Virus record (IMG/VR): IMGVR_UViG_3300025617_000810
Coordinates: 1 to 50,166 of that record
Strand: one strand, 5' to 3'
Length of the DNA: 50,166 nucleotides
Source of the DNA: a virus
Position numbers and translations under genes: made by a program. Of this stretch, positions 3,638-47,452 are shown one piece after another. Under the pieces are notes generated by a model. It saw nothing but the letters and a program-made list of their open reading frames with translations, made no database searches and was not told the DNA's origin. Within the stretch, counting starts at the first letter, position 1. Every line of letters begins with the position of its first letter.

Positions 3638-3640
3638 ATA
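3633..3640 (+). promoter_or_regulatory. Possible T4-type late promoter
   Basis: AATAAATA matches seven of eight positions of the T4 late promoter consensus TATAAATA. It overlaps the stop codon of the upstream structural gene and lies 18 bases before the next ATG. The AT-rich background makes chance matches common. Confidence 0.25.
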
Positions 3641-3657
3641 CAGTATAGGAAAAAGGT

Positions 3658-18181: not shown

Positions 18182-18192
18182 GTACATATATA

Positions 18193-21667: not shown

Positions 21668-22835
21668 CACTATAGATTTATTATCAGGAAATATTTTCCA
21701 AATTACTTGGGATTTAGGTCGTCGTTGCAATTATGATTGTAGTTATTGCCCTGCTCATAGGCATGACAATTTTAGTCCTCATGCATCATTAGATGATCTT
21801 AAATCTAATACTGATTTTTTGTTTGAATATATTGATACTTATATGCAGTATAGAAATAATAAATTAGCAAGTATTAGCTTTACAGGTGGCGAGCCTACAG
21901 TAAATCCTAATTTTATTCCTTTTGTAAAATATTTAAATGATGAATATTATAAAAAGTATTCTCATAAATGGGATGCTAATATAGGGTTAACTACTAACGG
22001 AGCTATGAGTGAAAAAATGGCTGAGGCAGTTATCGATAATATACAACATGTAACAGTTAGCTATCATACTGAATCAGATGATAAATTACGACAGCAAGTT
22101 AAAGATAGAATTAAACAATTTCGTGATGCAGAAATAAAATATCCTAAAGACTTTCGAATGAATGTTAATGTTATGTTTCATGCTCAACAGTTCGACGAAT
22201 GTAAAGATTTGTGCAAGTGGTTAGATACACTTGGCTGTAAATATGTTCCGAGAGTCATTGGAGAAGAACCTGACAGTAAAGCAACTTTTGCTCATGAGTA
22301 CACACCAGATCAATTAGATTACATTAAAAATTATTGGAAATATAAAAATGCTAAACTAAATGATGAAGAAGAAGTATCAAAGGTACTAAGTGCCGCAGGC
22401 GAAAAGAAAAATGAAGCAACAAAAGTTTTAGGAAGTAGTATCGGAAGACCTTGTTGTGGTATGCGAGAGATGTGTCTAAGTAGTGCAGGCGGCGAAAGTC
22501 GCAAGAGTACCTTTGTTAACATGCGAGAGTTTAAAGGTTGGCATTGTAGTGTAAATTGGTTTTTCCTACATTTAGAACAACAAACAGATCAGGTATTCCA
22601 TCATCAAACATGTCAAGCACGATTTGATGGTACAAGAGGTCCAATAGGTAAAATAAGTGAAGGTAAAAAGATTATTGCAGATCTTAAAGAAAAGTTATCA
22701 ATGAATAAAATGCCAACAATTGTTTGTCCTAAACAAACATGTAGTTGTGGATTATGTGCGCCTAAAAGTAAATTTAAAGACAGTTATGTAGACACACTAA
22801 AGAATCATTTTAATGTGGAAATTTTAGATGTCTGA
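21657..22835 (+). CDS. Radical SAM protein, class B (array gene 5)
   Basis: This 392-aa protein has C24-x3-C28-x2-C31 (CNYDCSYC) and a standard FTGGEPTVNP motif. LTTNGAMSE and VTVSYHTESD follow, as in canonical rSAM barrels. The C-terminal third is rich in cysteine (RPCCGMREMC, WHCSVNW, TCQARF, PKQTCSCGLC), more than one auxiliary cluster would need. It is paralogous to array genes 7 and 8. It starts within the end of array gene 4 and is followed by a short gap before array gene 6. Substrate unknown. Confidence 0.83.
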   Translation: MSFDTIDLLSGNIFQITWDLGRRCNYDCSYCPAHRHDNFSPHASLDDLKSNTDFLFEYIDTYMQYRNNKLASISFTGGEPTVNPNFIPFVKYLNDEYYKKYSHKWDANIGLTTNGAMSEKMAEAVIDNIQHVTVSYHTESDDKLRQQVKDRIKQFRDAEIKYPKDFRMNVNVMFHAQQFDECKDLCKWLDTLGCKYVPRVIGEEPDSKATFAHEYTPDQLDYIKNYWKYKNAKLNDEEEVSKVLSAAGEKKNEATKVLGSSIGRPCCGMREMCLSSAGGESRKSTFVNMREFKGWHCSVNWFFLHLEQQTDQVFHHQTCQARFDGTRGPIGKISEGKKIIADLKEKLSMNKMPTIVCPKQTCSCGLCAPKSKFKDSYVDTLKNHFNVEILDV

Positions 22836-22853
22836 ACCGTGGTGCTTTGAATA

Positions 22854-23795
22854 ATGTGGACAACTGATACACTAGAATGGATTGATATTGAACTTACTAG
22901 CTTTTGTAATATTAAGTGCAAAGGTTGTTTTAGAGTGATATCTAAACATGCAGATCAAATTTTAAATAAAACTTATTTAGATCTTGAAGTTATTAAGCAA
23001 AGATTTCAAAAGGAAATGTTTCCTAATATTAAGATTATTAATTTTTGTGGCAGTGTAGATGAACCTTGCAGTCATCCTCAATTTCATGAAATAGTAGAAC
23101 ACTTTGCAGAATGGGGATGTCATATTAATGTTGCAACTAACGGCAGTTTGCGTACTACACAATGGTGGGAAAAACTAGCAAAGATTATGCCGCCGAGCCA
23201 TAAGGTAACATGGGGCATTGATGGTAGCGACGAACTAAGTGAAGTTTATAGAGAAGGCTCTAATTTTAAAAAAGTACAGCAAAATTATAGAGCATTTATT
23301 GGAGCAGGCGGCAAAGCCAATTGGCAGTTTATTGTATTCGAACACAATGAACACCAACTAGAAGTTGCAAAACAAATGGCAACAGATGAAGGCTTTAAAG
23401 AATTTAAAACGATCATTAGTCATAGAAAAGATACTGGTGGAGTAAAACATAAAAAAGTTGAAGTAGAAGAGTCTAATTGTATCAGTTGCAAGTACGGTAA
23501 TCAAAAACGTATTTTTGTAAATCATATGGGAAATGTAATTCCATGCTGTCATTTAAATGCAAAGATGTTAGAATATTCTGTATCTTCTATTCCAAAGGAT
23601 AGATTTGAAGACATACTAGAACAACAAGACTATCTAACAGATATTAACTTAAAAAATGTTAGCTTAGAACAGGCAATTAACGGAAAAGTTTGGACTGATA
23701 TTAAAAATAGTTGGACATCAGACAATAAAATTCCAAGATGCGAACAAGTATGTAAAGAAAACAAAAGAGATAAGTTTATAAAGGATAAACTATAA
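22854..23795 (+). CDS. Radical SAM/SPASM-like protein, class A (array gene 6)
   Basis: This 313-aa protein has C18-x3-C22-x2-C25 (CNIKCKGC) and CGSVDEPCSHP as the class A motif. WGIDGSDELSEVYRE replaces the DTNHIYR pattern of its relatives, and FIVFEHNEHQLEVA is conserved. SPASM-like cysteines are ESNCISCKYG, IPCCHLN and RCEQVC. It starts 18 bases after array gene 5; the short gap shows no promoter. Its stop overlaps the next start by one base (TAATG). Confidence 0.82.
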   Translation: MWTTDTLEWIDIELTSFCNIKCKGCFRVISKHADQILNKTYLDLEVIKQRFQKEMFPNIKIINFCGSVDEPCSHPQFHEIVEHFAEWGCHINVATNGSLRTTQWWEKLAKIMPPSHKVTWGIDGSDELSEVYREGSNFKKVQQNYRAFIGAGGKANWQFIVFEHNEHQLEVAKQMATDEGFKEFKTIISHRKDTGGVKHKKVEVEESNCISCKYGNQKRIFVNHMGNVIPCCHLNAKMLEYSVSSIPKDRFEDILEQQDYLTDINLKNVSLEQAINGKVWTDIKNSWTSDNKIPRCEQVCKENKRDKFIKDKL

Positions 23796-24979
23796 TGGAA
23801 CCAGTAGCAAGTTATTTTAAGTTTAATCCAACTGGCGCATTTAGTGTTGATTGGTATATTGGAAAAAGATGTAATTATGATTGCAGTTATTGTGTAGATT
23901 ATTTGCACGACAATCATAGTCCACACGTTCCGTTAGAAAACATGAAGCGTCTTGTTGATGTAGTTTATGAAGAACATGGCACTAATGTATTTTGGAGTTT
24001 GACAGGTGGCGAGCCTACTGTGAATCCAAAGTTTATGGATTTGTGTAAGTATATTAAAGAAGAAAAAGGTGCAAGATTCATTAGTATTACTACTAATGGA
24101 AGTAGGACTGCAAACTATTTAAAAGAGCTATTCCAGTATCTGGACAGTATTACAGTTAGTTTTCATTTTGAACACATGGCAGATAAGGTTGATGAATTTA
24201 TTGAAAAGTTTATTGAACTAGATGATTGGCGTGTGGCATGGAATAAAGAACAAGAAGAAAAAGGACTTGATCATAAAGACTTTAAAAACGGTTATACTCG
24301 AAAAAATTTAATATTAAGATTTATGGTTTATCCTGAGCAGTTTAATAATATTGAAAAAATGGAAACTGCATTTAGGAATCATGGTATTACTAATATTGAA
24401 CATAGATATATACGTCCACCAGGCGGCAATAGTAATGAACTATTACCTAGAACAAAACTAGACTTTGAAAAAAATAATGATACAATGGAACCTAAAATAC
24501 TATTGTCTACAGATGACGAAGTAGAAATTAAGGTAATTGAAACTAGAGAAAAGAAATTTTATAAAGAAGGCGAAGAAGATAAAATTAAGAGAATTTACGA
24601 AAGCACTGTTACTCCAGATAAACGTAAATTAAAGTTTTGGTTCCAGGATGAAGAAAAGCAATACAAAGATATTGATTTTCATTACAACGAACTTAATTTT
24701 GACAAGAAAAATAATTATGAAGGCTGGCTATGTTGGGCAGGTGTAAAACATTTAAAAGTAACTCCTCCGGGAGACATTTATATTGGCAGTTGTCACGTTG
24801 GAGGGAAGAGAGGAAACATTTATGATAAAGACTCAATTGATCTTCCATTGGAACCTATTAGATGCCCTAAGTGGAGATGCACAGATAATTTAGATTTAAA
24901 AGTTCCTAAGATTAAAGATTGGGAACATTACCATTTAATTAAAGATATGATTGAATGGAAGGTTGACAAAGATCAATAA
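23795..24979 (+). CDS. Radical SAM protein, class B (array gene 7)
   Basis: This 394-aa protein has C26-x3-C30-x2-C33 (CNYDCSYC) and LTGGEPTVNP. ITTNGSRT and ITVSFHFEHM follow. A charged insert of about 80 residues (KIKVIETREKK region) precedes a C-terminal cysteine-containing part (GWLCWAG, GSCHVGG, RCPKWRC) that may bind one auxiliary cluster. Closest in the window to array genes 5 and 8. Coupled to array gene 6 by TAATG; an 18-base gap with promoter-like sequence separates it from gene 8. Confidence 0.82.
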   Translation: MEPVASYFKFNPTGAFSVDWYIGKRCNYDCSYCVDYLHDNHSPHVPLENMKRLVDVVYEEHGTNVFWSLTGGEPTVNPKFMDLCKYIKEEKGARFISITTNGSRTANYLKELFQYLDSITVSFHFEHMADKVDEFIEKFIELDDWRVAWNKEQEEKGLDHKDFKNGYTRKNLILRFMVYPEQFNNIEKMETAFRNHGITNIEHRYIRPPGGNSNELLPRTKLDFEKNNDTMEPKILLSTDDEVEIKVIETREKKFYKEGEEDKIKRIYESTVTPDKRKLKFWFQDEEKQYKDIDFHYNELNFDKKNNYEGWLCWAGVKHLKVTPPGDIYIGSCHVGGKRGNIYDKDSIDLPLEPIRCPKWRCTDNLDLKVPKIKDWEHYHLIKDMIEWKVDKDQ

Positions 24980-24991
24980 GTGTGTTAGTAT
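24963..24991 (+). promoter_or_regulatory. Possible sigma70-type promoter before array gene 8
   Basis: TTGACA, exactly 17 bases, then TAGTAT, overlapping the end of array gene 7. The expected transcription start would be at or very near the ATG at 24998, and no ribosome binding site is visible there. The -35 is perfect, the -10 only 4 of 6. Confidence 0.35.
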
Positions 24992-24997
24992 AGTATT

Positions 24998-26119
24998 ATG
25001 ACTGAAGATTTAAAATGGAGCAATTATGATTTTACTAAAATCCCCTTTGAGGATATTGTCTCTGTGGGGCAAAGAACTCTACTCTACAGGGATCTTTTTA
25101 CTGTTAGTTGGTTGCTCGGTCGTTTTTGTAATTATAAATGCTCTTACTGCTGGCCGTACGCTCGCAGTGACAGAAAAGATCATAGACCAACTGTACTATG
25201 TCTACGAACAATTGACGAGATAAAGCGACAGGCTCGTGATAACGGTTTTAATAGCTTTCATTTTAGTTTATCTGGTGGTGAGCCTACTTTTCACCCTGGC
25301 TATTTGGACATTCTCAAACATCTTGCCGATGATGTTGATAATACTAATTATACTAGCGTTCACATGACATCAAACTGTAGCCGCAACATGAAGTGGTTTG
25401 AACAGTATGTAGAAGCAGTTAAGCCATTTCATAGAGCAAGCATTACAGCAAGTTTACACACAGAGCATCTTAATACACGAGAAAAGATGCAAGATTTCGC
25501 TAACAAACTGATCTTGTGTCAAGAACACGATGTACAAGTTACAATCAATATGGTTATGGTTCCGGACTGGTTCGAAAGAGATTGGGAAAATGCATTGTTC
25601 TTCCACGAACAAGGAATCAATGTTACTCTTAAGCCGCAATCAGATCCAACTGCCTCGAGAGTGGTTGATGGTTATAAACCGGAAGATCTAAAACGTTTGC
25701 ACAACGGAATGCCGCAACGTGCATACACAGAAAGTAAACGTAAATGGGCTGAACGTCCTAAAGCAAAGTTTGAAGTACCTGCAGGAATGAGCAAGCCAGA
25801 TGCTAGTGTACCTTGGCATATGCAAGTAGAATTTGAGGATAAAGATGGCAAAAAATGGTATATGGATCAAGCTGAGCGTTTTAACGCTTTTAATTTTAAT
25901 AAGTTTAAAGGTTGGAATTGCAATGCCGGATACCAAGGAATCATTATTAGAGAGCCCGACGGTTCCGTTAAGCGATCCTATTCCTGTCACGATGTGCCGC
26001 TTGGAAACATCGAAACAGGATTTAAACTCTTTGATACCCCTATGCCCTGCATTACAAACTCCTGTGTCTCAAGTGCAGATTCAAAAATACCAAAAAGGAA
26101 AGTAGTGTGCCAGGAATAA
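24998..26119 (+). CDS. Radical SAM protein, class B (array gene 8)
   Basis: This 373-aa protein has C44-x3-C48-x2-C51 (CNYKCSYC), LSGGEPTFHP, MTSNCSRN and ITASLHTEHL. The C-terminal part has GWNCNAGYQG, SYSCHDVPLG and PCITNSCVSS, matching array gene 7 in order and spacing. No Shine-Dalgarno is visible before the ATG, unlike most neighbours. By eye its first 150 and last 200 bases look richer in G and C than the flanking genes, which may hint at separate acquisition. It overlaps array gene 9 by 13 bases. Confidence 0.82.
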   Translation: MTEDLKWSNYDFTKIPFEDIVSVGQRTLLYRDLFTVSWLLGRFCNYKCSYCWPYARSDRKDHRPTVLCLRTIDEIKRQARDNGFNSFHFSLSGGEPTFHPGYLDILKHLADDVDNTNYTSVHMTSNCSRNMKWFEQYVEAVKPFHRASITASLHTEHLNTREKMQDFANKLILCQEHDVQVTINMVMVPDWFERDWENALFFHEQGINVTLKPQSDPTASRVVDGYKPEDLKRLHNGMPQRAYTESKRKWAERPKAKFEVPAGMSKPDASVPWHMQVEFEDKDGKKWYMDQAERFNAFNFNKFKGWNCNAGYQGIIIREPDGSVKRSYSCHDVPLGNIETGFKLFDTPMPCITNSCVSSADSKIPKRKVVCQE

Positions 26120-26730
26120 TTCATATCGAGCCAACTTCGAGATGTCCACTACAATGTCCTTTGTGTCCAAGAACAATATATTCAGATAAAATACAAAATA
26201 TAGATTGTGACATTGAACACTATAGTAATTTGACATCTACATTTGACGAAATTATTATCTGCGGAAATCATGGTGATCCAATATATCATAAAGATTTTAT
26301 TGGATTAATACGTAAGATTAAAGAAAAGAACAATACTGCTAAATTAATTTTACACACTAATGGAAGTTATAGAACTTCAGATTGGTGGAGCAGACTAGCA
26401 AAAGTGTTTGATGCTAACGACGAAATTAATTTTAGTATTGATGGCATTGAAAGTAATAATCATATGTACCGAGTAAATTCTAAATGGGATTTAATTGTAA
26501 AAGGTATAGAAGCATTTAGAACAAATAATAGTTCAACTAAGTTGATATGGAAACATATACTTTTTAAATATAATCAGGACACTATTACACAAGCACTAGC
26601 AATAGCTAAACAACTAAAATTTGATCAGTTTATGATAGTGCAAAGCAATCGCAACAGTGATAAATTTAATCCTACAATAACGATTAATCAACTTGAAGAA
26701 AATATAAAAAATGATCTATCCACGCTGTAA
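26107..26730 (+). CDS. Radical SAM core, class A, separated from its C-terminal domain (array gene 9, first part)
   Basis: This 207-aa protein starts with GTG behind a GGAAAG stretch. It has C13-x3-C17-x2-C20 (CPLQCPLC), CGNHGDP, FSIDGIESNNHMYRV and HILFKYNQD, so it is a class A core. It stops just where its relatives enter the SPASM-like domain. The missing part is encoded in the next reading frame from 26711. Across an A6 run at 26706-26711, one base fewer would join both ORFs into a class A protein of the usual length (about 308 residues). This may be a real split, a programmed frameshift, a broken gene or an assembly error. Confidence 0.72.
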   Translation: MPGIIHIEPTSRCPLQCPLCPRTIYSDKIQNIDCDIEHYSNLTSTFDEIIICGNHGDPIYHKDFIGLIRKIKEKNNTAKLILHTNGSYRTSDWWSRLAKVFDANDEINFSIDGIESNNHMYRVNSKWDLIVKGIEAFRTNNSSTKLIWKHILFKYNQDTITQALAIAKQLKFDQFMIVQSNRNSDKFNPTITINQLEENIKNDLSTL

Positions 26731-27034
26731 AATTAATAAAGCCGCAGAATATATCGATAGCGACGGTTATTATTATCCTTGTTGTTGGATAGCTAATCAA
26801 CCTTATGTTGATGATCTAAAAGAATTTCTTGGAGAAGATTTAGAAGAATTGCATACACAAAATAAATCTATACAGGATCTAAGAAAAAGTAAAGCATTGA
26901 TTAAACTAGAAAATAGTTGGGATAAATCAGATTGCTTTTATGCTTGTAAGAAGTTTTGTAGTAAAAATCCTGCTGACATAAAAAATGAAGGCGGCGCTCA
27001 TACAATCAACGAACATATTATTTTTAATCTTTAA
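26711..27034 (+). CDS. SPASM-like C-terminal domain ORF (array gene 9, second part)
   Basis: This 107-aa ORF opens with MIYPRCKINKAAEY and continues with YYPCCWIANQ and DCFYACKKFCSKN. These align with the SPASM-like region of the class A proteins (VIPRC..., VPCCWW, KCIENC in array gene 3). Its ATG lies at the end of the A6 run, 20 bases inside the preceding ORF, so it could be translated by frameshifting or by re-initiation; no clear ribosome binding site is present. It ends inside the convergent twitch rSAM gene (11-base overlap). Confidence 0.65.
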   Translation: MIYPRCKINKAAEYIDSDGYYYPCCWIANQPYVDDLKEFLGEDLEELHTQNKSIQDLRKSKALIKLENSWDKSDCFYACKKFCSKNPADIKNEGGAHTINEHIIFNL

Positions 27035-28205
27035 TGGTTGCAAAAATATCTGCAAAATGAGGATAACTTTTGTAAAAGTCCTGATCTCTATAAGCATCAG
27101 TGCCTTCTAAATACGTTTGTAACTGTGGTAGAAGATGACTGTCATCCTTGCTATTCATAAGATTTTTTATATATTCTAACGAGTTAATTATCTTTATGTT
27201 ATCTGAATTCTTCTGATACTCGTTAAATTTAGCAGTTACACGTTCCTTGATGTGTTTAGGTAATACTGTAACACATAATATTTCTGGATATGTTAAATGT
27301 GTTGGATTCACAATAACATTGCCGCTATCGTGTTTAAACCACCACTCCATACTTTCTGCCATATACCATACATTTAAAATACTAATAGTACTACGTAATA
27401 GAACATTATATCCGTTTGTACGTTTTAATTCTAAAAAGCGTTTAGTTACTTCTTCAGTAAGTTCGTATTTTGCAGGCCAACGTATATATTCGCTTTCTTC
27501 TTTGTTACAACTATCAAAGCTAAGAGCAAACTCGACTGTTTTAAATTTGTCCCATTTTTTGACCCAACTATCTTTAGGCATAATAGTACAGTTAGTGCTA
27601 TAATTTAAAAATATTTCGCTACAGTCTCTCTCCGCAATTAGTTTGTCAACTACTATCCATTGATCCTTTGTTAATAACGGCTCACCGCCGGTGAACTTGA
27701 TATGAACTAGATCATTTATAAAAGGATATATGTTAGCAATGTCACTTTTGCTTTTTTCGACTTCGTTCCAAGTCTTGCCATAAATTGCTTGTTCTTCTTT
27801 GAACCACTTCCACGCATAACGACTGTCACACATACGACACGCTAAGTTGCAATCATTACTAATGGCAAGTTCGATCCATCCGATCTTAGGATTATCTAGA
27901 TCGACTAACTTGTCTATAGGCAATGTTTTGTTATCATGATAACGTTCTCGTAAACTACGCTTACCTGCATCTTCTTCTTGATAGCAACGTATGCATCCTT
28001 CTACTTGTTCGCCCTTCATCATCTTGTCACGAATATCATTCATCCAATCTCCGTAGAACACTTCACTCAGTGTTTTTTCTTTGAGATTGTTTTCATTGGG
28101 TCTAAACTTTTCAGCAAACCTACAGCACGGTTTCACACGTCCAGTGGGATCGATAAACTGATGGTCCCACGCCATACTGCAAAATGTTTTACTTGGAATT
28201 TTCAT
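27024..28205 (-). CDS. Twitch-domain radical SAM protein, convergent with the array
   Basis: This 393-aa protein, with ATG 28205 chosen over an upstream TTG, has the N-terminal twitch motif FCSMAWDHQF (C9), then KPCCRF (C27, C28) and GCIRCYQEED. The rSAM core has CNLACRMC and FTGGEPLL. Later YSTNCTI and FALSFDS fit the barrel. It is the third twitch protein of the window and the only rSAM gene besides queE on the minus strand. It is the second gene of a two-gene unit: its start overlaps the end of the QueC-like gene by 17 bases, suggesting a joint function. Confidence 0.85.
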   Translation of the reverse strand: MKIPSKTFCSMAWDHQFIDPTGRVKPCCRFAEKFRPNENNLKEKTLSEVFYGDWMNDIRDKMMKGEQVEGCIRCYQEEDAGKRSLRERYHDNKTLPIDKLVDLDNPKIGWIELAISNDCNLACRMCDSRYAWKWFKEEQAIYGKTWNEVEKSKSDIANIYPFINDLVHIKFTGGEPLLTKDQWIVVDKLIAERDCSEIFLNYSTNCTIMPKDSWVKKWDKFKTVEFALSFDSCNKEESEYIRWPAKYELTEEVTKRFLELKRTNGYNVLLRSTISILNVWYMAESMEWWFKHDSGNVIVNPTHLTYPEILCVTVLPKHIKERVTAKFNEYQKNSDNIKIINSLEYIKNLMNSKDDSHLLPQLQTYLEGTDAYRDQDFYKSYPHFADIFATIKD

Positions 28206-28986
28206 CTTCAAATTTCTTTACAGGTGTAGGATCTTGAATGTTATTTTGACTAAGTCCGTATGCTCGTTCGTGACACCACCAACATTGACCACAAGGAATA
28301 TCTAATTTTTTTGCAATGATCTGATCTCTCCAGTTATCACACGAACATGTTAATGTCATTAACTCGTCAATTAGGTTATATTTTTTATACAGGCTTACAA
28401 CATCTGCTTTATCTAAATGAGAAAGAGGAGATGCATTATACGGTCCTGTATAAATGTCAAATGTTCTATCTCTATTCTTTTGTCTAAATTCATCATTTGG
28501 AAAATGTTTTCTAAATTCAACAGGTGGATTTTTTGTATTTCCGTTAACTTCAAAATTAACAATTTTAGACATTAACATTTCTCTAATTTTAAGTATAATA
28601 AATTCTTTCTTACCAACACCCGACATGGTTGCTTCTTTTGTACACTGCTCTAATGGAATAGCGTATTCTATAATATCTCCAAATTTAAAATCTAGTAATT
28701 CTTCTACTTTGCTTATAATAGCAAGAGGCTGTACAGGTAACTTAGTAGGGATATCAAAGTGTATAGGTCTTACTTTAATATTATAATTGTTGTCTTTTAC
28801 TGTCTTTGCTACTAGATAGAGTAGCAAAGCACTGTCCATACCTCCGCTTATTTGAACTCCTATATTCTCCCATTCTGGATTGATAGGTACTATAGCATCT
28901 AATCCGCTCTTAGCCGCGTAAGTATGTTCTATTATTTTTTGATTCTTAGGAGGATATGAACCTTTGCTTCTGTATACATATGCCAT
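28189..28986 (-). CDS. PP-loop ATPase, QueC-like (7-cyano-7-deazaguanine synthase-like)
   Basis: This 265-aa protein has the PP-loop SGGMDS (residues 47-52), which binds ATP in QueC, NAD synthetase and asparagine synthetase-like enzymes. SPLSHLDKADVVSLYKKY and a cysteine cluster (C214, C216, C232, C235, C238; CGQCWWC) resemble the QueC zinc site. QueC turns 7-carboxy-7-deazaguanine into preQ0 using ATP and ammonia. Here the protein is longer than a typical QueC (about 225 aa) and its operon partner is a twitch rSAM, not queD or queE. It may be a true QueC, or a relative adenylating another carboxylate. Confidence 0.65.
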   Translation of the reverse strand: MAYVYRSKGSYPPKNQKIIEHTYAAKSGLDAIVPINPEWENIGVQISGGMDSALLLYLVAKTVKDNNYNIKVRPIHFDIPTKLPVQPLAIISKVEELLDFKFGDIIEYAIPLEQCTKEATMSGVGKKEFIILKIREMLMSKIVNFEVNGNTKNPPVEFRKHFPNDEFRQKNRDRTFDIYTGPYNASPLSHLDKADVVSLYKKYNLIDELMTLTCSCDNWRDQIIAKKLDIPCGQCWWCHERAYGLSQNNIQDPTPVKKFEDENSK

Positions 28987-30247: not shown

Positions 30248-30488
30248 ACACTTAGACGAAGCAAAAAATAAAGCTGGTAAGCCTGATGCAGGCTATTGGT
30301 GGCATTTTCGTTTAGCAATGAACGAATTTTTCTTTTTGTTAGCAGTAACTATAGGAAGTTTGATTCACGCAATTTTTCCTTGGGTATTAGATTTTAAACT
30401 CCTTGAATGGAGAATTAATCGTTTAAAAGTCCTCAAAGAAAAATTGCCTGATGATCCTCAATTAAAGAAGGTACATTTTGATGACTAA
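30231..30488 (+). CDS. Small single-pass membrane protein
   Basis: This 85-aa protein has one clear hydrophobic segment (FFFLLAVTIGSLIHAIFPWV, around residues 33-52) between charged ends. The pattern of HP/YWWHFRLAMN before the segment and IHAIFPW within it resembles the small family DUF6356, sometimes annotated near capsule genes; that match is from memory. Expected in the inner membrane. It overlaps both neighbours and so is co-translated with the aminotransferase. Confidence 0.6.
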   Translation: MWYNPKHLDEAKNKAGKPDAGYWWHFRLAMNEFFFLLAVTIGSLIHAIFPWVLDFKLLEWRINRLKVLKEKLPDDPQLKKVHFDD

Positions 30489-31314
30489 CGTATTAGATTT
30501 AATAGCATATAAGAATGGTGAATATAAGCCGCTAGGAGAAATAGGACCTAGTGTTTTAGACTTTGGGTTTATTCACTGTGATGCTACTTATGATGTTATG
30601 CCCGTATATAACGGCAAAGCATTCTGTTATGAACGACATTTACAAAGATTTAAGAACAGTGCTAAACGCTATGGACTTACAATTCCAGACGTAGATCCTC
30701 TAGAGATCATTAAAGAACTTGCTAGACGCAATCCAATTGAAAATGCGTTTGTATGGTTTATGATCTGGAGAGGCTTTCCGCCCAGTGGTAATCCAAGAGA
30801 CTTAGAAAATTGTCCAATAAATTTTGCAATGTATATTAAGCCTAGCTATCCACTTGCTAATAAAGACGTTGTTAATGTTTATCTAGATAAAGAATCTTAC
30901 CGAGTTGACGATATACACTTTGGACAAGAATATAAAAACATGAGCTGGATTGAATTAACAATGGCTCAGCGTAAAGTTCCTGAAGGATACGATACTTGTG
31001 TATTAGTTGATAGCGATGATAATATTACTGAAGGCCCGGGATTTAATATTGGATTTGTTGATACTATAGGAATTTGTACACCTGCGAGGAATTGTCTTAA
31101 AGGTGTTACTATGAGTGTTGTCGAAGATATTGCTAAAGAACAAAAAATTGATTTCGACCGAACTGACATATCAGCAGAAGATTGGGACAACATGGACGAA
31201 ATCTTTTTAACAAGTTCTAGTGGCGGCGTAACGCCAGTTCGCTCCGGACCTATTACCGAAATGCTTATTAAAGAATACGAAAAGAAAAAGGTAGAGTATG
31301 GAACTGAATTTTGA
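30481..31314 (+). CDS. Class IV PLP aminotransferase (IlvE / D-amino-acid transaminase / PabC superfamily)
   Basis: This 277-aa protein has the fold type IV hallmarks: an N-terminal VLDFGFIHCDATYDV strand pattern, ERHLQRF, the PLP-binding lysine in YKNMSW (K152), and ITEGPGFNIGFV (E184) as the cofactor-binding glutamate and loop. It transfers an amino group between an amino acid and a keto acid, or acts as a lyase in PabC. Substrate specificity cannot be read. I chose ATG 30481 over TTG 30478. It overlaps the upstream stop by eight bases and the ANL gene by 17. A branched-chain or D-amino-acid role is possible. Confidence 0.82.
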   Translation: MTNVLDLIAYKNGEYKPLGEIGPSVLDFGFIHCDATYDVMPVYNGKAFCYERHLQRFKNSAKRYGLTIPDVDPLEIIKELARRNPIENAFVWFMIWRGFPPSGNPRDLENCPINFAMYIKPSYPLANKDVVNVYLDKESYRVDDIHFGQEYKNMSWIELTMAQRKVPEGYDTCVLVDSDDNITEGPGFNIGFVDTIGICTPARNCLKGVTMSVVEDIAKEQKIDFDRTDISAEDWDNMDEIFLTSSSGGVTPVRSGPITEMLIKEYEKKKVEYGTEF

Positions 31315-31975
31315 AGATGTTCTTAAAAATGGATGCACTATAAGCAGTAGTGGTACTACAGGATCTCCAAAATCTATATATAGAAGTCCTGAAAATTTAA
31401 AACACTGTATCGATACTGCAATTACTGCCCAAAATCTAACCAAAAATAGCAGTGTGTATACAGTTACTAGAATGACTCATGCAGGTGGATTATTACTTCA
31501 AAGTTTACCGGCATATACACTAGGGTGCGATATAACAATTGAAAAGTTCAATGCATATAGCTTTTTAAAGCGTTTTAAGCGTCATACACACACGTTTATT
31601 GCTCCTGCTATGTGTGAAGCACTACTAAGCACTAAGAGCTTTAAAACAGCTGATTTAACGGGTAAATTTGTTGCAATGGGCAGTGATCCAATTCCAAAAC
31701 ATCATATACAAGCATTTATAGACCGTGGCGCAACAGTTTTGGCGAATTGGGGTATGAGTGAAATTGGTCCTTGTGTTATTAATAAATTGTATAAACCTGG
31801 CGATACAGCAGAAGATAATATTTTGGGCAACACATTTTGGTGTGATTATAGAGTTAAAGAAAACCAGTTATATGTAAAAAGTCCGATGTGTATACATGAC
31901 GATTGGTTTGCAACAGGTGATCTTGTAACATACAGGAATAAGGGATTATATTATTTAGGAAGACTTGATGTATAA
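31298..31975 (+). CDS. Very short AMP-binding (ANL superfamily) protein lacking its C-terminal lid
   Basis: This 225-aa protein has the ATP-binding motif SSSGTTGSPKSI at residues 16-27, ANWGMSEIGP (motif A5) and FATGDLV (motif A7), and stops at YYLGRLDV, the A8 hinge. It thus lacks the N-terminal 150 residues and the whole C-terminal domain with the A10 lysine of usual 500-aa enzymes. Such a core may still adenylate a carboxylate or may need a partner; the second ANL protein at 35951 has the missing domain. The upstream stop and the next start both overlap it, so it looks like a complete gene and not a fragment. Confidence 0.75.
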   Translation: MELNFEDVLKNGCTISSSGTTGSPKSIYRSPENLKHCIDTAITAQNLTKNSSVYTVTRMTHAGGLLLQSLPAYTLGCDITIEKFNAYSFLKRFKRHTHTFIAPAMCEALLSTKSFKTADLTGKFVAMGSDPIPKHHIQAFIDRGATVLANWGMSEIGPCVINKLYKPGDTAEDNILGNTFWCDYRVKENQLYVKSPMCIHDDWFATGDLVTYRNKGLYYLGRLDV

Positions 31976-32693
31976 TAATGCAATTACAATTAATTTTCCT
32001 ATGGGATCAGGCGGACATATTGCAGGAAGAATTATTTCTAGTTGTAATAATGTAAGTTGGTACGATCATATACAAAATGGAATCAACCCTTGGGACTCTT
32101 TTAATATTATAAACGATGCTAACTTTTCGAGATTACATTTTAATAAAAGATTTAGAGGTGCATTAGGTAAAGGAGTTTGTGATAAAACTATTCCTCCTGT
32201 ATTAGATATGGCCGAAAAGCAAGGAAGAGAATATTCACAAGATGAAATTGAAACATGGAAGCAACGTCTCTATCCTAATAATTTTGTGTATACACTACAT
32301 TCTGATTTAGATAGAGTAAAGAATTTTTTTAATCCTGCAAAACATTTTGTAATTATTCCTGAAGATATAGAATTATTATATACTAGATGGATAAACAGTA
32401 CATGTCATTATTATGTTGATCCACGTAATAGAAACTATCTTTTTAAAGATTTGTATACTGATAAAGCAAATGAACAAGGAATAACATTTAAAGAATGTTT
32501 AGTCAACGATCTTACTGCACAAATAGAAGGTTATAAACAAAAGACAGATGATAAAGATTTTATTATCAAAGAAGTTTCTCAATTATACGACAAGGATTTT
32601 TTTGTGACGTTATGTGAAAAATTTGATCTTGAGTTTAATGAGATGGCATTTAGAAAAACAGTAAAGTTTTCTAAAGACGTGTCACATCTTTAG
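31968..32693 (+). CDS. P-loop / sulfotransferase-like protein (tentative)
   Basis: This 241-aa protein starts with ITINFPMGSGGHIAGRIISS, a glycine-rich strand-loop-helix as in the PAPS-binding loop of sulfotransferases and related phage proteins. No clear second PAPS motif can be picked out. KHFVIIPEDIELLYTRWIN could be the helix bearing substrate residues. Start ATG 31968 (over TTG 31965) overlaps the ANL stop. Its end overlaps the convergent methyltransferase gene by 12 bases. Confidence 0.38.
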   Translation: MYNNAITINFPMGSGGHIAGRIISSCNNVSWYDHIQNGINPWDSFNIINDANFSRLHFNKRFRGALGKGVCDKTIPPVLDMAEKQGREYSQDEIETWKQRLYPNNFVYTLHSDLDRVKNFFNPAKHFVIIPEDIELLYTRWINSTCHYYVDPRNRNYLFKDLYTDKANEQGITFKECLVNDLTAQIEGYKQKTDDKDFIIKEVSQLYDKDFFVTLCEKFDLEFNEMAFRKTVKFSKDVSHL

Positions 32694-33407
32694 TAATTCA
32701 AAATAAAGTCGACTATTATCTTTTTTGTATTGTTCTAAACTACAGTTATATTCTTTAGCCAGTTTATAAGCAAACTCAAAAGTCCAAGGAAATATATCTA
32801 CATACGGACCTTTAGGCCATAATATTCCCGGATTAACTCTAAAGTACATTCTACCACCGGTGTCTAATAAATTATACAACTTATCAAATCTTGTACGGAT
32901 ATCGTTTTCATCACCAAAGTTTAAACTACCGAATACAATCATGTGATCATATTTTTCATCTACATTAAACTCTAGGATGTCTACCATATAGTCTGCATTG
33001 TCATTAAACGGATCAATACCTGTTAGATTAGCAATACGTGGTTTAAATTGATTATATCCGCATCCGAAGTCTAACACATTGCGTGGATTTTGTTTGTTAA
33101 TTCGCTCAACAATACTCCATCCGCTGTAAGTATGATTGTCGGTATTAGGTTTCCAAATTTCGCCAAAGAATCTTTTCATATAAAAAGTATCCAATGATTG
33201 TACAAACTGTTCAATAGTTCCAGTTAAATCTAAGTGTTCGATATCTAACTCGTGCATAATATTCTGTGCGAATTTTTCTTTACGTACAGGTGTAAATGGT
33301 AGATCATCTACTACACTATCTTTGGTTAATTGTAAACCTTTGTACTTAGGTAAATTGAAGGTTTGTTCTAAATTTTTCATAACTAACGAAAAAATTCGTG
33401 TATTCAT
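32682..33407 (-). CDS. SAM-dependent methyltransferase with an ACP-like N-terminal region
   Basis: This 241-aa protein has motif I in NVLDFGCGYNQF (residues 110-121), then TGIDPF as the acidic strand end and HMIVFGSLNFGDEND as motif IV, so the last 135 residues are a class I methyltransferase. Residues 4-72 have the length and pattern of an acyl carrier protein (four helices, DSVVDDL, then IMHELDIEHLDL, then TIEQFVQSL), but the phosphopantetheine serine is absent (DDLPFTP). I chose ATG 33407, behind GGAG, over one at 33422. Acceptor unknown. Confidence 0.72.
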   Translation of the reverse strand: MNTRIFSLVMKNLEQTFNLPKYKGLQLTKDSVVDDLPFTPVRKEKFAQNIMHELDIEHLDLTGTIEQFVQSLDTFYMKRFFGEIWKPNTDNHTYSGWSIVERINKQNPRNVLDFGCGYNQFKPRIANLTGIDPFNDNADYMVDILEFNVDEKYDHMIVFGSLNFGDENDIRTRFDKLYNLLDTGGRMYFRVNPGILWPKGPYVDIFPWTFEFAYKLAKEYNCSLEQYKKDNSRLYFELLKM

Positions 33408-33423
33408 AATTTTTCTCCACATT

Positions 33424-33475: not shown

Positions 33476-34909
33476 GTGACTTCAATATTGACACTACTAG
33501 CAGGAACATTTTATGGATTAATAATTGGTATCCTGCCCGGTGCCGGAGCAACTACAGGTTTAATATTTGTATTTTCATTTATTACTTTATTTCCAGATCC
33601 TTATCTAGCAGTTATATTTGTTATGGCAGTAGTAGCCGCAAGTACAACAGGTGATACTTACACAGGTGTACTGTTAGGAATACCTGGTGCAAACTCAGCC
33701 GCGGCAACTATGGTAGATGGCTTTCCGTTAGCATTACAAGGTAAAGCAACGTATGCTATCAGTGCCGCAGTAACCACAAGTACACTAAACGGATTACTGT
33801 GGGGATCTCTTACATTCTTTCTGTTGCCTTATTACACTGATCTAATAATGATATTCGGTGTTCCAGAGCTATGGGCATTTACACTACTAGCATTAGTATG
33901 TGTGACATTTGTAACAAATAAGTTTTGGATTAGAAGTATGGTTGCATTGTGCTTTGGTTTGTTCATAGGTTTAATAGGAGTTGATCCTGCAACTAACGCA
34001 GACCGCTGGACTGGCGGTTGGGAATATTTAGGCGCAGGTATACAATTAATGCCGTTAGTTGCTGGTTTGTTTGCCATTCCAGAATTATTAAGCGGTCTTA
34101 CACAACGTACAAATACCAGTAACCCATTAATTGCAAATAGTATACAAACTAAAGAAGGAATAATTGCTGTATGGAATAATAAATGGGATGCATTACGTGG
34201 AGGGATTATTGGCGCATTTGTCGGCTTATTACCTGGACTAGGAGGAGCAGTTGCAGATTGGATGGCATATAGTTCAACTGTTGCAAGTCATCCTAAAGAC
34301 AAGTTTGGTAACGGAAACATTAAAGGTGTTATAGGACCAGAGGGTGCTAACAATTCACAAAAAGCAACCAGCATGATTCCTACAGTATTGTTTGGTATTC
34401 CAGGTGCACCTTTTGCCGCTATTGTAATGGCTCTATTTGCATACTTAAATTTTGAATTAGGTACTTTAGAGCTTGCTAATGACGCTAAATTTTTTGATAG
34501 TATGTTATACGGCTTTATGCTTGCAACCGTGCTTGTAGGCGCTCTATGCTTGTTTACGACACCTTTTATAGCCCGGATAGCACAAATACCCTACAAATAT
34601 TACTTTCCGTTGCTGTTGGGTTTTATAGTACTTGCTTGTGTACAATATACAGGCGGTTGGGAAGATTATTTAATGCTTGCATTGTGTAGTGTAATAGGAC
34701 TACTAGCCAAGCAATACAAATTTAGCAGACCTGCACTGCTATTTGCTTTTATTCTATCTGATAGAATTGAGGCACTTACAGTCCAAATGTCTGGACTTTA
34801 TACAGTTGATAAACTGTTAGATAAACCAATATTCCTAGGATTAGTTTTTGCAATAATTGTAACACTAATTTGGGGACTAACATCAAAAAGGAAAATAGAT
34901 TATGCGTAA
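33476..34909 (+). CDS. tctA: Tripartite tricarboxylate transporter permease, TctA type
   Basis: This 477-aa membrane protein shows TctA family hallmarks in two half-repeats: GLIIGILPGAGATTGLIF near the start and FVGLLPGLGGAVADWMAY near the middle. GVLLGIPGANSAAATMVDGFP and GPEGANNSQKATSMIPTV with LFGIPGAPFAA follow, as in PF01970. Around twelve hydrophobic segments span the inner membrane. TctA is the large permease of a transporter that also needs TctB and a periplasmic TctC and imports carboxylates by ion gradient. The start is GTG with AAGGAG six bases upstream. It overlaps the TctC-like gene by eight bases; no TctB is present. Confidence 0.88.
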   Translation: MTSILTLLAGTFYGLIIGILPGAGATTGLIFVFSFITLFPDPYLAVIFVMAVVAASTTGDTYTGVLLGIPGANSAAATMVDGFPLALQGKATYAISAAVTTSTLNGLLWGSLTFFLLPYYTDLIMIFGVPELWAFTLLALVCVTFVTNKFWIRSMVALCFGLFIGLIGVDPATNADRWTGGWEYLGAGIQLMPLVAGLFAIPELLSGLTQRTNTSNPLIANSIQTKEGIIAVWNNKWDALRGGIIGAFVGLLPGLGGAVADWMAYSSTVASHPKDKFGNGNIKGVIGPEGANNSQKATSMIPTVLFGIPGAPFAAIVMALFAYLNFELGTLELANDAKFFDSMLYGFMLATVLVGALCLFTTPFIARIAQIPYKYYFPLLLGFIVLACVQYTGGWEDYLMLALCSVIGLLAKQYKFSRPALLFAFILSDRIEALTVQMSGLYTVDKLLDKPIFLGLVFAIIVTLIWGLTSKRKIDYA

Positions 34910-35954
34910 GTTAATTTTAGGTTTAGTGTTTGCAATGTTTACTACAGTAGCAAATGCAGATTATACAATGGTAGTACCACAGAAGCCAGGAGGCGGCACA
35001 AGCGTCTGGGCAGAAATTGTTGCTAAAGAATTAGAAAAATATCTTGGAGAAGATGTTAATATTGTACACATTCCTGGTGCTCGAGATATTCCAGGCTTTA
35101 ATACATTTCATAATGAAATGCAATATGACGATGATGTAATCATGGTAAGTCATGGCGGCAACGGCGTAAGTTTCTTACAAGAAGAAGTTGATTACAACTA
35201 TGCTGAGTACGAAAGTATTGGTCTTATGAACTTAAACATTATTGTAGGCAAGCATCGTGCTATTGATTTAGAACACGGCGGCATTAGATTTGCGGCAGGT
35301 TCGGGCATGGTACCAGAAGCATTTGCAATGACAATGTTAGTATGTGGTCCTGATAAAACTGTAGATGAATATATTACTTGTTTTAAAGAAAATGTAACCT
35401 GGGTTAAAGGAATGAGCGGCGGCGAAAGACGGCTTGCTTTTAAGAGAGGCGAATTAAATGCTACTAGAGAAAATCCTGCCGCATATAAAAAGCATGTTGA
35501 ATCAGATGATAATGCAGAGATTTGGTTTCATCATGGTATTCTAAATAGTGAAACAGGTGATCATGGTGACGATACAAACTATCCTGGTTACCAGTTTGAA
35601 ATACTATTTGAAAAACGATGGGGTGTTAAGCCGAGTGGTGATTTCTACGATGCATACAAACTAGTAAAAAGTTTCCGTGATGGTATGCAAAAAGCATTGT
35701 GGGTACGCAAAGGTAATCCAAATACTGCCAAATTACAACAAGCATTACATGATATGTCTTTAAATAAAGATAGTAAGAAAATTATAGAAAACAAAGTAGG
35801 TGTTTATAAGTGGAAAATTGGTGCCAACGGAAATGCACATAGAGATACACTAATGACGCTAATCACTGAACAAGCACTCAAGAATCTAGTTAAGTTTAAC
35901 AAAGAAGCGTTAGGACTAGCTAGTGTATTTAAATCAGGAATAATTAAAAAGTGA
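34902..35954 (+). CDS. Periplasmic substrate-binding protein, TctC type
   Basis: This 350-aa protein has a clear signal peptide (MRKLILGLVFAMFTTVANA, cut after residue 19). The mature start has YTMVVPQKPGGGTSVWAEI and VNIVHIPGARDIPGF, matching the PGGG and PGAG regions of TctC (Bug) proteins that bind carboxylates, often aromatic or di- and tricarboxylic acids. It would deliver ligand to the TctA permease in the host periplasm. The protein is slightly longer than usual (about 320 aa). It overlaps tctA by eight bases and the ANL gene by four (GTGA). Confidence 0.8.
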   Translation: MRKLILGLVFAMFTTVANADYTMVVPQKPGGGTSVWAEIVAKELEKYLGEDVNIVHIPGARDIPGFNTFHNEMQYDDDVIMVSHGGNGVSFLQEEVDYNYAEYESIGLMNLNIIVGKHRAIDLEHGGIRFAAGSGMVPEAFAMTMLVCGPDKTVDEYITCFKENVTWVKGMSGGERRLAFKRGELNATRENPAAYKKHVESDDNAEIWFHHGILNSETGDHGDDTNYPGYQFEILFEKRWGVKPSGDFYDAYKLVKSFRDGMQKALWVRKGNPNTAKLQQALHDMSLNKDSKKIIENKVGVYKWKIGANGNAHRDTLMTLITEQALKNLVKFNKEALGLASVFKSGIIKK

Positions 35955-37114
35955 ATAATATAATACTTTCTTTCGAGAATGGTAATACATATACAAAAGA
36001 ACAGTTTGATTCCTTAGCACAAAGTTATGCTAAGGAATTAATCGATGCAGGATACGATAAAACTTGTAGGTTAGGTGTGTACAGCAATTGTACTAACTTA
36101 ATGAAAATATACGGAGTAATGAGTGTGTGCAGTGTTGTTGTTATGGACTATAAAGCAACAGAGATTGAACGCAAGTATTACGATGTTGATATATGGGACG
36201 ATGTGCTACCAAAGCCTAGATATAATCAATGTAACGATGACGAAATAACAGCATTTGTATCAAGCGGAAGTACTGATGCACTTAGGTTAATACCACTAAC
36301 AAGAGCCGATCATGATACAGAAGGATTGGATACTAACATACAAATACATGCTAATATCACAGATAAAGATTCTACTATAAATTGTATTCCATTGTGGGCA
36401 TGTATAGGGTTTCAACTGTTTTCAATTTGCTATAGAACTGGTGCAACTTATCATGTTTTAGATAACGTATGGGAATCATGGCCTAAAGTTAAGCCCACAT
36501 TTTTAGTAGCCAATCCTAGTATTTTATTGAAGTTAATGAAGTATTGCAAAGTGCCGTATGAAACTATGAGTATAAGACATATTCGTACAGTTGGTGCACC
36601 TATGTACAAAGATTTTAAACATGAAGTGCAAAATTATTTTAATTGTATTACAACTGATTCGTATGGACTAAATGAAACAGGAACAATTAGTATAATGCAT
36701 TATCCGCAAAAACACGGCAGTGTTGGATTTGTACTACCAAATAAAACTGTAACATTTGATAATGGTGAAATTGTAGTTAATGGTTATTATACCGGAGACT
36801 TAGGATATATCGACGATGAAGGATTTTTGTTTATTACTGGAAGAGTTAAAGATGTAATTAACCAAGAAGGTATTAAAATTATGCCTTACGAAGTAGAAGA
36901 AGCTCTAGTTAAATGCGGAGCAATAGATTGTGTGGTGTTTGGATATGACAGCGTTTATGCAGTTGTTGTTGGCAAAGTAGATATGGAGCAATTATCTAAA
37001 GAAATTGCATGGTATAAAATACCTAAGAAAGTCTTTTACGTGGAAAGTATTCCACGTAAAGGACAAGGTAAAATAAGTAGAAAAGAATTACTTAAACAGT
37101 ATAATTTAGACTAA
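35951..37114 (+). CDS. AMP-binding (ANL superfamily) acyl/aryl-CoA synthetase-like protein
   Basis: This 387-aa protein keeps the later ANL motifs: DSYGLNETGTI (A5), YTGDLGYIDDEG (A7), FITGRVKDVINQEGIK (A8) and PRKGQGKISRKEL (A10, with the adenylation lysine). The ATP-binding A3 motif is degenerate: VSSGSTDALRLI instead of SSGTTGxPK. It is about 100-150 residues shorter than usual at the N-terminus. The pattern suggests activation of a carboxylate to an adenylate and then to a CoA or carrier ester, perhaps of the acid brought in by the TctA/TctC genes. GTGA overlap with the TctC stop; the end meets a convergent tail gene. Confidence 0.75.
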   Translation: MNNIILSFENGNTYTKEQFDSLAQSYAKELIDAGYDKTCRLGVYSNCTNLMKIYGVMSVCSVVVMDYKATEIERKYYDVDIWDDVLPKPRYNQCNDDEITAFVSSGSTDALRLIPLTRADHDTEGLDTNIQIHANITDKDSTINCIPLWACIGFQLFSICYRTGATYHVLDNVWESWPKVKPTFLVANPSILLKLMKYCKVPYETMSIRHIRTVGAPMYKDFKHEVQNYFNCITTDSYGLNETGTISIMHYPQKHGSVGFVLPNKTVTFDNGEIVVNGYYTGDLGYIDDEGFLFITGRVKDVINQEGIKIMPYEVEEALVKCGAIDCVVFGYDSVYAVVVGKVDMEQLSKEIAWYKIPKKVFYVESIPRKGQGKISRKELLKQYNLD

Positions 37115-45669: not shown

Positions 45670-45806
45670 TATAATCCTGCCTCCCTTGCTCTAATCATTC
45701 TTTGTTCAATTTCTTCTGCTTCTTCAACATCTGTTTGATTAATAGGAGCAGTCATAGCACGTTCATGCTGTTTGTTCATGTACAACTTCTTAGGTCCCCC
45801 ATGCAT
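45669..45806 (-). CDS. 45-aa hypothetical protein
   Basis: A short ORF starting at ATG 45806 and overlapping the end of queE by 17 bases. The protein (MHGGPKKLYMNKQHERAM..., EEAEEIEQRMIRAREAGL) is charged and helical. The same frame stays open upstream as a 189-residue ORF, but that part shadows queE and is not likely real. A second ATG at 45779 could be the start. Confidence 0.5.
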   Translation of the reverse strand: MHGGPKKLYMNKQHERAMTAPINQTDVEEAEEIEQRMIRAREAGL

Positions 45807-46683
45807 TTCCGAATAAAGATATGTGGAGTCTTGGTGTGAATCGCCATCCTCGTTCCATACAGGCTTCCGCCACGTCTTTAACATTGAGGGAATATTCTTC
45901 ACTGCGTCCGCCCAGCGGCATAAGATATACCGGACATTCCACCCCGGCACTTCTGTAAGCGTCCACAGCCCTGCCAACTTCGTCAAAATCGTCTTGATTA
46001 GCGACAACAAACTTGAGATAAATGTCACTGCCGTTAACAGTACTATACTGATGAGCGACATTAGGCAGGATAGCAGTATCCCAAGGTTCTCCGCTAACAC
46101 TAAGTTTTGGGGAACAAGACCACGTGACTGTAAATCTGTCTTGGTTGTTAAGATAGTTGTAGAAATCTTCGTGTAATTTCTGTGTAGTGTTTGTTTCAAA
46201 TGTAACATTTTTAAGGTCTCGCATACGTGGATGTTCAAACAGCTCTACGTAAAGTCGTTGCCACGCTAACAACGGTTCACCACCTGTCATAATCAAATGG
46301 ATATCTTGTCCATTATCCATTGTCCACTTACCTTCTGGAGTAAGTGACAGCAGATGTTCAACCACTTCTTCAACGTCTGCTTGTTTATTAAAGTGCTTGA
46401 ATTCTGGATAGATACTAGCATAAGTATCACAACCTGTATGTATAATAGGTAAATCGTTAAATTCTTTTGTAGTCTTGTGTACGTCTGCGTCAAGCAATCT
46501 TTGTACTTCGGCATTTCGAATAATGCCTGCCTTTTGCTTTTCGTCTCGCATAGGTTCATTCTTTAAACCAAAGTTCATGCAACGAAAGTTACAACCGAAT
46601 GTGCGCAGGAATACACTAGGTACACCTACATATTTGCCTTCGCCTTGCACACTGTAAAAGGCTTCACTGTAGCGTAATTTCAT
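45790..46683 (-). CDS. queE: 7-carboxy-7-deazaguanine synthase-like radical SAM protein
   Basis: This 297-aa protein has the QueE start YSEAFYSVQGEGKYVG, VFLRTFGCNFRC, then GCDTYAS, LIMTGGEPLL, FETNTT and CSPKLS. QueE converts 6-carboxytetrahydropterin to 7-carboxy-7-deazaguanine. The third cluster cysteine is far away: C31-x3-C35-x49-C85, instead of the usual x2 or a short insertion. ATG 46683 is chosen with AGGAG before it and TAATG overlap; the ORF's longer start is not needed. It sits just after folE and the micropeptide in one transcript. Confidence 0.85.
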   Translation of the reverse strand: MKLRYSEAFYSVQGEGKYVGVPSVFLRTFGCNFRCMNFGLKNEPMRDEKQKAGIIRNAEVQRLLDADVHKTTKEFNDLPIIHTGCDTYASIYPEFKHFNKQADVEEVVEHLLSLTPEGKWTMDNGQDIHLIMTGGEPLLAWQRLYVELFEHPRMRDLKNVTFETNTTQKLHEDFYNYLNNQDRFTVTWSCSPKLSVSGEPWDTAILPNVAHQYSTVNGSDIYLKFVVANQDDFDEVGRAVDAYRSAGVECPVYLMPLGGRSEEYSLNVKDVAEACMERGWRFTPRLHISLFGNAWGT

Positions 46684-46772
46684 TAAAATGCTCCTTTCAA
46701 ATAGGTTAGCACAACTACTACAGTTGAGCCGATTAATAGACCTCGACAAATACTTTCAACATAGCTGTTCAT
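46683..46772 (-). CDS. 29-aa membrane micropeptide between folE and queE
   Basis: An ORF of 29 codons starts with ATG overlapping the folE stop (ATGA) and ends with TAA overlapping the queE start (TAATG), so it fills the gap exactly. Its middle, LLIGSTVVVVLTYL, is a single hydrophobic segment after a short head (MNSYVESICRG) with one basic residue; the tail is KGAF. The queE ribosome binding site lies inside its last codons. It may be a real peptide or a translation coupler; no homologue is recognised. Confidence 0.5.
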   Translation of the reverse strand: MNSYVESICRGLLIGSTVVVVLTYLKGAF

Positions 46773-47452
46773 CGTGCAAACTCCTGTTGTAGCTTAATGT
46801 TGTCAAAGAACTCTTTCTTTGTACCTGCATCATCTTTAAAAGATCCACGCAATACAGTTGTCTGTGTAAGACTGCTATTAGCCATAATACCACGATTCTC
46901 ACAACAACCATGTGTTGCTTGAATGTAAACACCTAAATTTTCTGCACCTGTTGCAGTTTGAATCTCACGTGCAATATCATTTGCAAGTTCTTCTTGTAGT
47001 GTTCCACGTCTAGCACACCACTGTGCAATACGTGTGTACTTGCTTAGACCAATTAGTTTGTCTGCGGCAATAATACCAATGTATGCAACACCTGATACTG
47101 GCTGGTGGTGATGTGAACACACACTTTTAAGTTCTGAACGGACTACAAGCATTCCTTCATAACGTTCATCGCTATCATTGGGAAATGCTGTTGCGCTAGG
47201 CATAGGATCATAACGTCCTGCCATTAATTCATTGTAGTACATTTTAGCAAGACGTCTTGCTGTACCTTGTGAATTAGGATCATTTACTTGATCAATTAGT
47301 AGTGTATCTAGTACACCTTGAAATGCTACAGTAGCTTCTTCAATAAGTTCTTGTTTGTCACCTTTTTGTAATACGTGACTAATATTATCGCCTGCCCAGT
47401 AACGCACCTTTGCGTCTTCTAGTCTGGCTTTAATTTGTTCTACTTTACTCAT
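46769..47452 (-). CDS. folE: GTP cyclohydrolase I
   Basis: This 227-aa protein has the FolE zinc and active-site signature: SVCSHHHQPVSG (C112, H115), KLIGLSKYTRIAQWCARR, then ATHGCC with C183, the third zinc ligand. It makes dihydroneopterin triphosphate from GTP, the first step toward folate and toward 7-deazaguanine bases. The length fits FolE1. It leads the folE-micropeptide-queE unit and has a consensus promoter 45 bases upstream. Confidence 0.92.
   Translation of the reverse strand: MSKVEQIKARLEDAKVRYWAGDNISHVLQKGDKQELIEEATVAFQGVLDTLLIDQVNDPNSQGTARRLAKMYYNELMAGRYDPMPSATAFPNDSDERYEGMLVVRSELKSVCSHHHQPVSGVAYIGIIAADKLIGLSKYTRIAQWCARRGTLQEELANDIAREIQTATGAENLGVYIQATHGCCENRGIMANSSLTQTTVLRGSFKDDAGTKKEFFDNIKLQQEFAR

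Follow-up and report, generated by a model that had tools for sequence, protein, structure and literature searches.

Viruses encode two proteins of a tripartite tricarboxylate transporter (TTT), the permease TctA and the periplasmic binding protein TctC, and no gene for the third subunit, TctB, was found in the viral records searched; a probable ancestral subfamily, cellular and with TctA and TctB fused, is identifiable. The pair is described here from IMG/VR record IMGVR_UViG_3300025617_000810 (positions 1 to 50,166, the whole stretch analyzed, hereafter the window), which is classed as linear and therefore probably is a fragment. Its two genes probably encode a phage-borne, TTT-type carboxylate importer, derived from a fused TctA-TctB ancestor through removal of the TctB domain.

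Three plus-strand genes in overlapping frames occupy positions 33476–37114; tctA and tctC share 8 nt, and tctC shares 4 nt with the third gene, for an adenylate-forming (ANL) enzyme:

33476..34909, plus strand: tctA permease, 477 aa, GTG start (PF01970, E = 9.8e-93)
34902..35954, plus strand: tctC-like periplasmic binding protein, 350 aa (Foldseek, viral profile, and tree)
35951..37114, plus strand: short ANL enzyme, 387 aa (PF00501, E = 7.6e-16)

The original prediction, made from the sequence letters, saw here a phage-borne TctA and a signal-peptide TctC joined by overlaps to an ANL enzyme, and each of these identities is borne out by the matches listed. In comparisons with relatives, ratios of nonsynonymous to synonymous divergence (dN/dS) are low for tctA (0.04–0.11, with 0.08–0.11 for the window gene), tctC (0.07–0.17), and the ANL gene (0.04–0.16), with dS close to saturation for the more distant pairs; all three genes thus are maintained by purifying selection.

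The window TctA is matched over its full length by PF01970 (profile positions 1–422 of 423). The motif G-x3-G-x3-G-x2-P-G-x-G, read from the sequence, occurs twice, at residues 10–24 and 242–256, so that the PGxG signature of TctA permeases (Transporter Classification, TC, 2.A.80) is present in both repeats. The AlphaFold model has a mean predicted local distance difference test score (pLDDT) of 82; a Foldseek search with it returned nothing useful, and the TctA profile had no match among PDB sequences. Intact viral TctAs are all 473–491 aa long, and the protein stops at the point where TctB would start in its fused relatives.

For TctC, residues 1–19 were read by eye as a signal peptide (MRKLILGLVFAMFTTVANA, followed by DYT), in which A19 is invariant across 15 viral sequences. 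Viral TctC has no match in Pfam (including PF03401) or NCBIfam, and a profile search of PDB sequences returned merely BugD at E = 0.25, which is not recognition. By contrast, the first 13 chains found by Foldseek with the AlphaFold model (pLDDT 79.5) are all TTT binding proteins (E 5e-9 to 7e-8), among them MatC, TphC, Rpa4515/AdpC, BugD, Bug27, Bpro_3516, and TBP. A viral TctC profile in turn matches cellular TctC-like proteins (E 1e-9 to 1e-14) and, with E down to 2e-27, TctCs encoded beside fused TctAB genes, one of which is a PF03401 member. Because predicted fold and viral profile both match TTT binding proteins, the identity of TctC has been tested rather than assumed: it is a TctC/Bug periplasmic binding protein with a signal peptide, though unmatched by PF03401 itself.

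TctB was sought with three profiles, and the original prediction's statement that it is absent holds for the window and for up to 34 related viral records. PF07331 found none in the window or in 22 related records of up to 328 kb; a fused-TctB-domain profile, whose positive controls scored E 1e-48 to 1e-58, was negative in 35 viral records, the window among them; and neither the fused-domain profile nor one of stand-alone TctBs, which also found no TctB in the window, matched any of 11,946 viral frames. Apart from TctA, the window encodes no polytopic membrane protein of a suitable size. Thus, the TctB subunit of four to five transmembrane segments that belongs to a TTT system, separate or fused, was not found in the viral records searched.

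The nearest cellular relatives give this absence a history. In those genomes of the Pelagibacter metagenome-assembled genome (MAG) family that contain the nearest cellular TctC, the neighboring TctA is encoded within a 651–668-aa frame, and most of these frames match TctB too (PF07331, E 5e-6 to 3e-4). The viral TctA profile was searched in 289 genomes of the Pelagibacter MAG class and 321 of the marine bacterium B5-7 class, with 98 and 11 genomes, respectively, falling within the E-value limits set. Almost every one of the best matches falls in a 625–727-aa frame, in two proteobacterial classes, and most ordinary TctAs of about 500 aa score below these long frames. The C-terminal extension of the long TctAs resembles TctB (hhalign probability 97%, E = 6e-11 for the pair), and a TctC of 350–400 aa that matches the viral profile adjoins most fused genes with flanking DNA read. 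Such fusions with a long adjacent TctC occur in many alpha- and gamma-class genomes, Pelagibacter relatives included (cellular loci L150–L156, L161–L181, and L207–L212); TctA-TctB fusions have been described as rare (PMC5812351).

A maximum-likelihood tree rooted on stand-alone TctAs places the viral clade inside the fused group. With the first taxon set, a single clade of fused sequences excluding the viruses was rejected (approximately unbiased test, p = 0.012). A second tree, with gamma-class fusions added and the worst long branches left out, shows the same nesting (fork 99/97), and none of 200 bootstrap trees unites the fused sequences in a single clade. In the TctC tree the viral clade is sister to the TctCs of fused systems, one very long, doubtful row excepted. 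The phylogeny that had been proposed for finding a donor thus points to the fused subfamily for both proteins: viral TctA shares its ancestry and lacks its C-terminal TctB domain. The absence of TctB can be traced to a cause: the closest cellular TctAs carry it as a fused domain, and this domain is missing from the viral form. The simplest reading would seem to be acquisition of a TctC plus TctA-TctB system and then loss of the TctB domain, an event for which the TctA tree gives no timing.

A locus assigned to marine bacterium B5-7 (L117, 7989–10491) holds a tctA-tctC pair that is virus-like, lacks TctB, and has a sulfotransferase-like neighbor, on a contig that looks bacterial by its YcaO- and TfuA-like genes (identified by eye). 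It branches near the base of the viral clade, and is a candidate either for the donor lineage or for phage-to-host transfer.

These observations suggest how the pair may work. If expressed during infection, TctC would pass into the periplasm of a Gram-negative host, where it would capture its ligand, presumably an organic anion, which TctA in the inner membrane would carry inward, driven by an ion gradient. The pair would stem from a cellular subfamily whose TctA and TctB form a single polypeptide, encoded beside a matching TctC; because the TctB domain would have been removed in the viral lineage, we infer that TctA most likely functions with no dedicated TctB. For the window's lineage, the presumably co-translated ANL enzyme may activate the imported acid.

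Several points weigh against such a two-protein importer. No searched viral record is shown to be complete, and a very divergent TctB possibly lies elsewhere in the genome; TctB diverges fast and is poorly conserved, with 27% average identity (PMC5812351). In one terephthalate TTT system both membrane subunits, TpiA and TpiB, are essential (PMC5812351). The viral TctA branch is long, at about 1.9 changes per column, which leaves its exact attachment point uncertain and possibly distorted. The premise of the original prediction that known TTT systems need TctB has few experiments behind it, and many archaeal TctAs stand alone (PMC5898192).

The missing subunit might instead be supplied by the infected cell, as the original prediction proposed. 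Cellular genomes with TctC relatives often hold several stand-alone TctB genes, with a TctB match in 10 of the 13 searched, and such completion is possible. Yet the nearest cellular relatives have TctB fused to TctA and so imply no matching stand-alone partner; the low conservation of TctB also counts against it, as does the presence of the pair in several phage types with presumably different hosts. Use of a host TctB is therefore less natural than first assumed, and we regard it as unlikely.

Replacement of TctB by an unrelated small phage membrane protein is distinctly improbable. The candidates are two families encoded in some phages immediately behind tctC or close to it: DUF6552 (about 75 aa) and an unnamed 117-aa protein with several hydrophobic segments (examples at L085 9050–9271, L022 13161–13400, and L103 9105–9458). 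DUF6552 is directly 3′ of tctC in 6 of 38 dereplicated viral loci and is encoded elsewhere in G001 and G020, 93% relatives of the window; the 117-aa polytopic protein follows tctC in L049, L050, L057, L103, L109, and L110. Both are missing from the window and from most loci, and the TctB profiles found no homology to either. Moreover, marine virus AG-345-D19 and pelagiphage Mosig encode DUF6552 but have no TctA or TctC match, which weakens the case for DUF6552 as a dedicated TctB.

Alternatively, the genes may no longer import a nutrient and may have taken another role, for example in superinfection blocking or sensing. Pairs of membrane and periplasmic proteins can act in exclusion, and loss of a subunit is consistent with a change of role. 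Nevertheless, both repeats of the permease keep their motifs, and over a wide range of divergence the permease and its binding protein are still found together and under purifying selection, making this the least probable of the alternatives, and a very doubtful one. We continue to favor the two-protein importer.

That the genes are viral is evident from their surroundings. Tail and baseplate-type proteins are encoded in the left part of the window, and an exonuclease, QueE, and FolE in the right; the MoxR-type ATPase is about 50% identical to its counterpart in PA5oct-like jumbo phages. Separate contigs from other metagenome sets have the same gene order, with TctA, TctC, and ANL proteins 91–96% and also 100% identical. 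Contamination by host DNA or misassembly, which the original prediction named as a finding that would refute it, thus is ruled out by independent contigs with flanking phage genes.

Relatives of TctC are encoded on at least 352 IMG/VR contigs. The two genes overlap or lie at most 20 nt apart in 96 of 104 viral loci (a set that includes some contigs twice), and so their arrangement is not due to chance. Carriers comprise several phage types, some jumbo-like and others with a T4-type replication block, whose genes were identified by eye rather than by family search; on some contigs the pair lies between genes read as a gp44-like clamp loader and HSP20, and an IscU-like protein and a gp43-like DNA polymerase. 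Judged from MAG titles, the viruses are likely marine. Among the 50,697 phage records of INPHARED there is no TctC match, and the TctA matches are only remote (24–31%) and probably of bacterial origin. The pair therefore is common in uncultured viruses and is not shown by cultured phages. That a binding-protein-dependent TTT importer of TctA and TctC only, made by TctB-domain deletion, has spread among many uncultured phages is a proposal for which we see an even chance.

A profile scan of genome contigs with close viral TctAs gave no match, and one with a more diverse TctA alignment found four MAG loci. Two of these, L119 and L120, look like phage contigs binned with bacteria. In L118, from an Omnitrophota MAG, a virus-like TctA without TctC (3168–4604) lies directly 3′ of several methyltransferase-like genes; it is the sole case in 285 genomes of the phylum, and possibly a binned viral contig.

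The third gene has a narrower distribution. Its product retains the core ANL motifs: the P-loop SSGST, in which the usual Lys is Arg; YGLNE; TGDLG; and GQGKI, with Lys374 as candidate catalytic residue. An AMP-binding domain with motifs A3, A5, A7, A8, and A10 is conserved in eight relatives. The N-terminal domain is not full length, the PF00501 match starting at profile position 122. A profile of the enzyme best matches oxalate-CoA and 4-coumarate-CoA ligases. Among known proteins, the short ANL ligases PRK08308 (414 aa) and PRK07824 (362 aa) of NCBIfam have a shortened ANL fold in common with it; in contrast to them, the viral enzyme scores far under the family cut-offs and carries the Lys-to-Arg change.

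The original prediction read the set as carboxylate import followed by activation, and its proposed search of viral genomes for the same operon gives a divided answer. Close ANL relatives occur on 21 viral contigs of one phage lineage, against the at least 352 with TctC; a widespread tctA-tctC-ANL operon accordingly was rejected, and the pair, being widespread, rather than the trio, is the conserved unit. More diverged ANL-type genes are near the pair in L078, L082, L113, and L120. Within the window's lineage, a dedicated pathway in which the enzyme makes the coenzyme A ester or adenylate of the imported acid is compatible with a two-protein importer, and is a plausible, if tentative, proposal. 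It is favored by the 4-nt overlap, by the ANL gene lying downstream of tctC in 17 of the 18 viral contigs where this is visible, and by the retained motifs. In sister contigs, moreover, tctC and the ANL gene are separated by a gene whose product has a GFSLG motif (hydrolase-like by eye only, with no match in a Pfam search), and a radical S-adenosylmethionine (SAM) gene comes after the ANL gene. Restriction to one lineage, most TctA-TctC contigs being without an adjacent ANL gene, counts against it, as do the P-loop substitution and the short N-terminal part; import and activation is not a fair description of the viral pair in general.

Upstream of the trio lie a methyltransferase-like gene and a set of overlapping genes:

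30478..31314, plus strand: class IV aminotransferase, opening the adjacent gene set (PF01063, E = 8.9e-37)
31298..31975, plus strand: second, truncated ANL-type protein, 225 aa, without C-terminal domain (PF00501, E = 2.6e-16, profile positions 170–350 of 384)
31965..32693, plus strand: P-loop protein (motif NFPMGSGGH), closing the set; sulfotransferase-like by eye
32682..33422, minus strand: methyltransferase-like gene adjoining tctA (Methyltransf_23, E = 0.0096, under the Pfam cut-off)

The 225-aa protein, whose gene overlaps the aminotransferase gene, has roughly the same length in its relatives, and its family is present in 11 of the 38 dereplicated loci. Searches of Pfam and NCBIfam gave no family for the P-loop protein, relatives of which occur in 8 of the 38. 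A methyltransferase-like family is found near tctA or tctC, on either strand, in 30 of the 38 loci, and a sulfotransferase-like family around tctC in 19; these companions may hint at a pathway shared with the pair. In another phage lineage (L019, 6238–7070), genes like those for adenosine 5′-phosphosulfate kinase and a nucleotidyltransferase or ATP sulfurylase are near tctAC, and neighborhoods of this type often hold sulfotransferase-like genes.

The window also has at least 11 radical-SAM genes at 14064–28211, unusually dense for a phage: nine consecutive on the plus strand (17114–26730), one on the minus strand (27024–28211), and one for an N_Twi_rSAM protein (14064–15410, E = 1.8e-89). Much of the cluster is retained in close relatives. 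QueE-like and FolE-like genes and a QueC-like protein (45790–47452 and 28189–28986) suggest 7-deazaguanine metabolism, possibly for DNA modification.

Cyanophage PstS is a phage-encoded periplasmic binding protein for nutrient uptake by ATP-binding cassette transport, and is carried without a permease. Viral TctC likewise is a periplasmic binder; unlike PstS, it comes with its permease. Among TTT systems, the closest to the viral pair is the cellular fused subfamily of the Pelagibacter MAG and marine bacterium B5-7 classes, in which TctB is part of TctA and the order is tctC then tctAB; the viral systems are without TctB and, except in L120, have tctA before tctC. The classical TctCBA system (Salmonella citrate, TC 2.A.80) uses the same permease and periplasmic binding protein families, whereas the viral set lacks TctB, has a TctC below Pfam detection, and is ordered A-C rather than C-B-A. 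Stand-alone archaeal TctAs (arCOG04469, PMC5898192) are like the viral one in being without TctB, but usually are without TctC as well. The open-access literature searched yielded nothing beyond hits to the tctA domain on putative SUP05 viral contigs (eLife 2014, PMC4164917). That report gives the domain hit only, the TctC partner, the subfamily, and the missing TctB not being described there. A text match to "TctC" in a paper on glacier viruses proved to be a primer sequence.

Very few experiments bear on whether TTT transport needs TctB. A naturally occurring pair without TctB, with a close relative that is fused, allows direct comparison, and would offer a natural test of what TctB does. 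If the reading proposed here is true, these phages carry a substrate-specific uptake system, binder and permease together, rather than a lone binding protein; this would imply that the supply of organic acids limits infection in their hosts.

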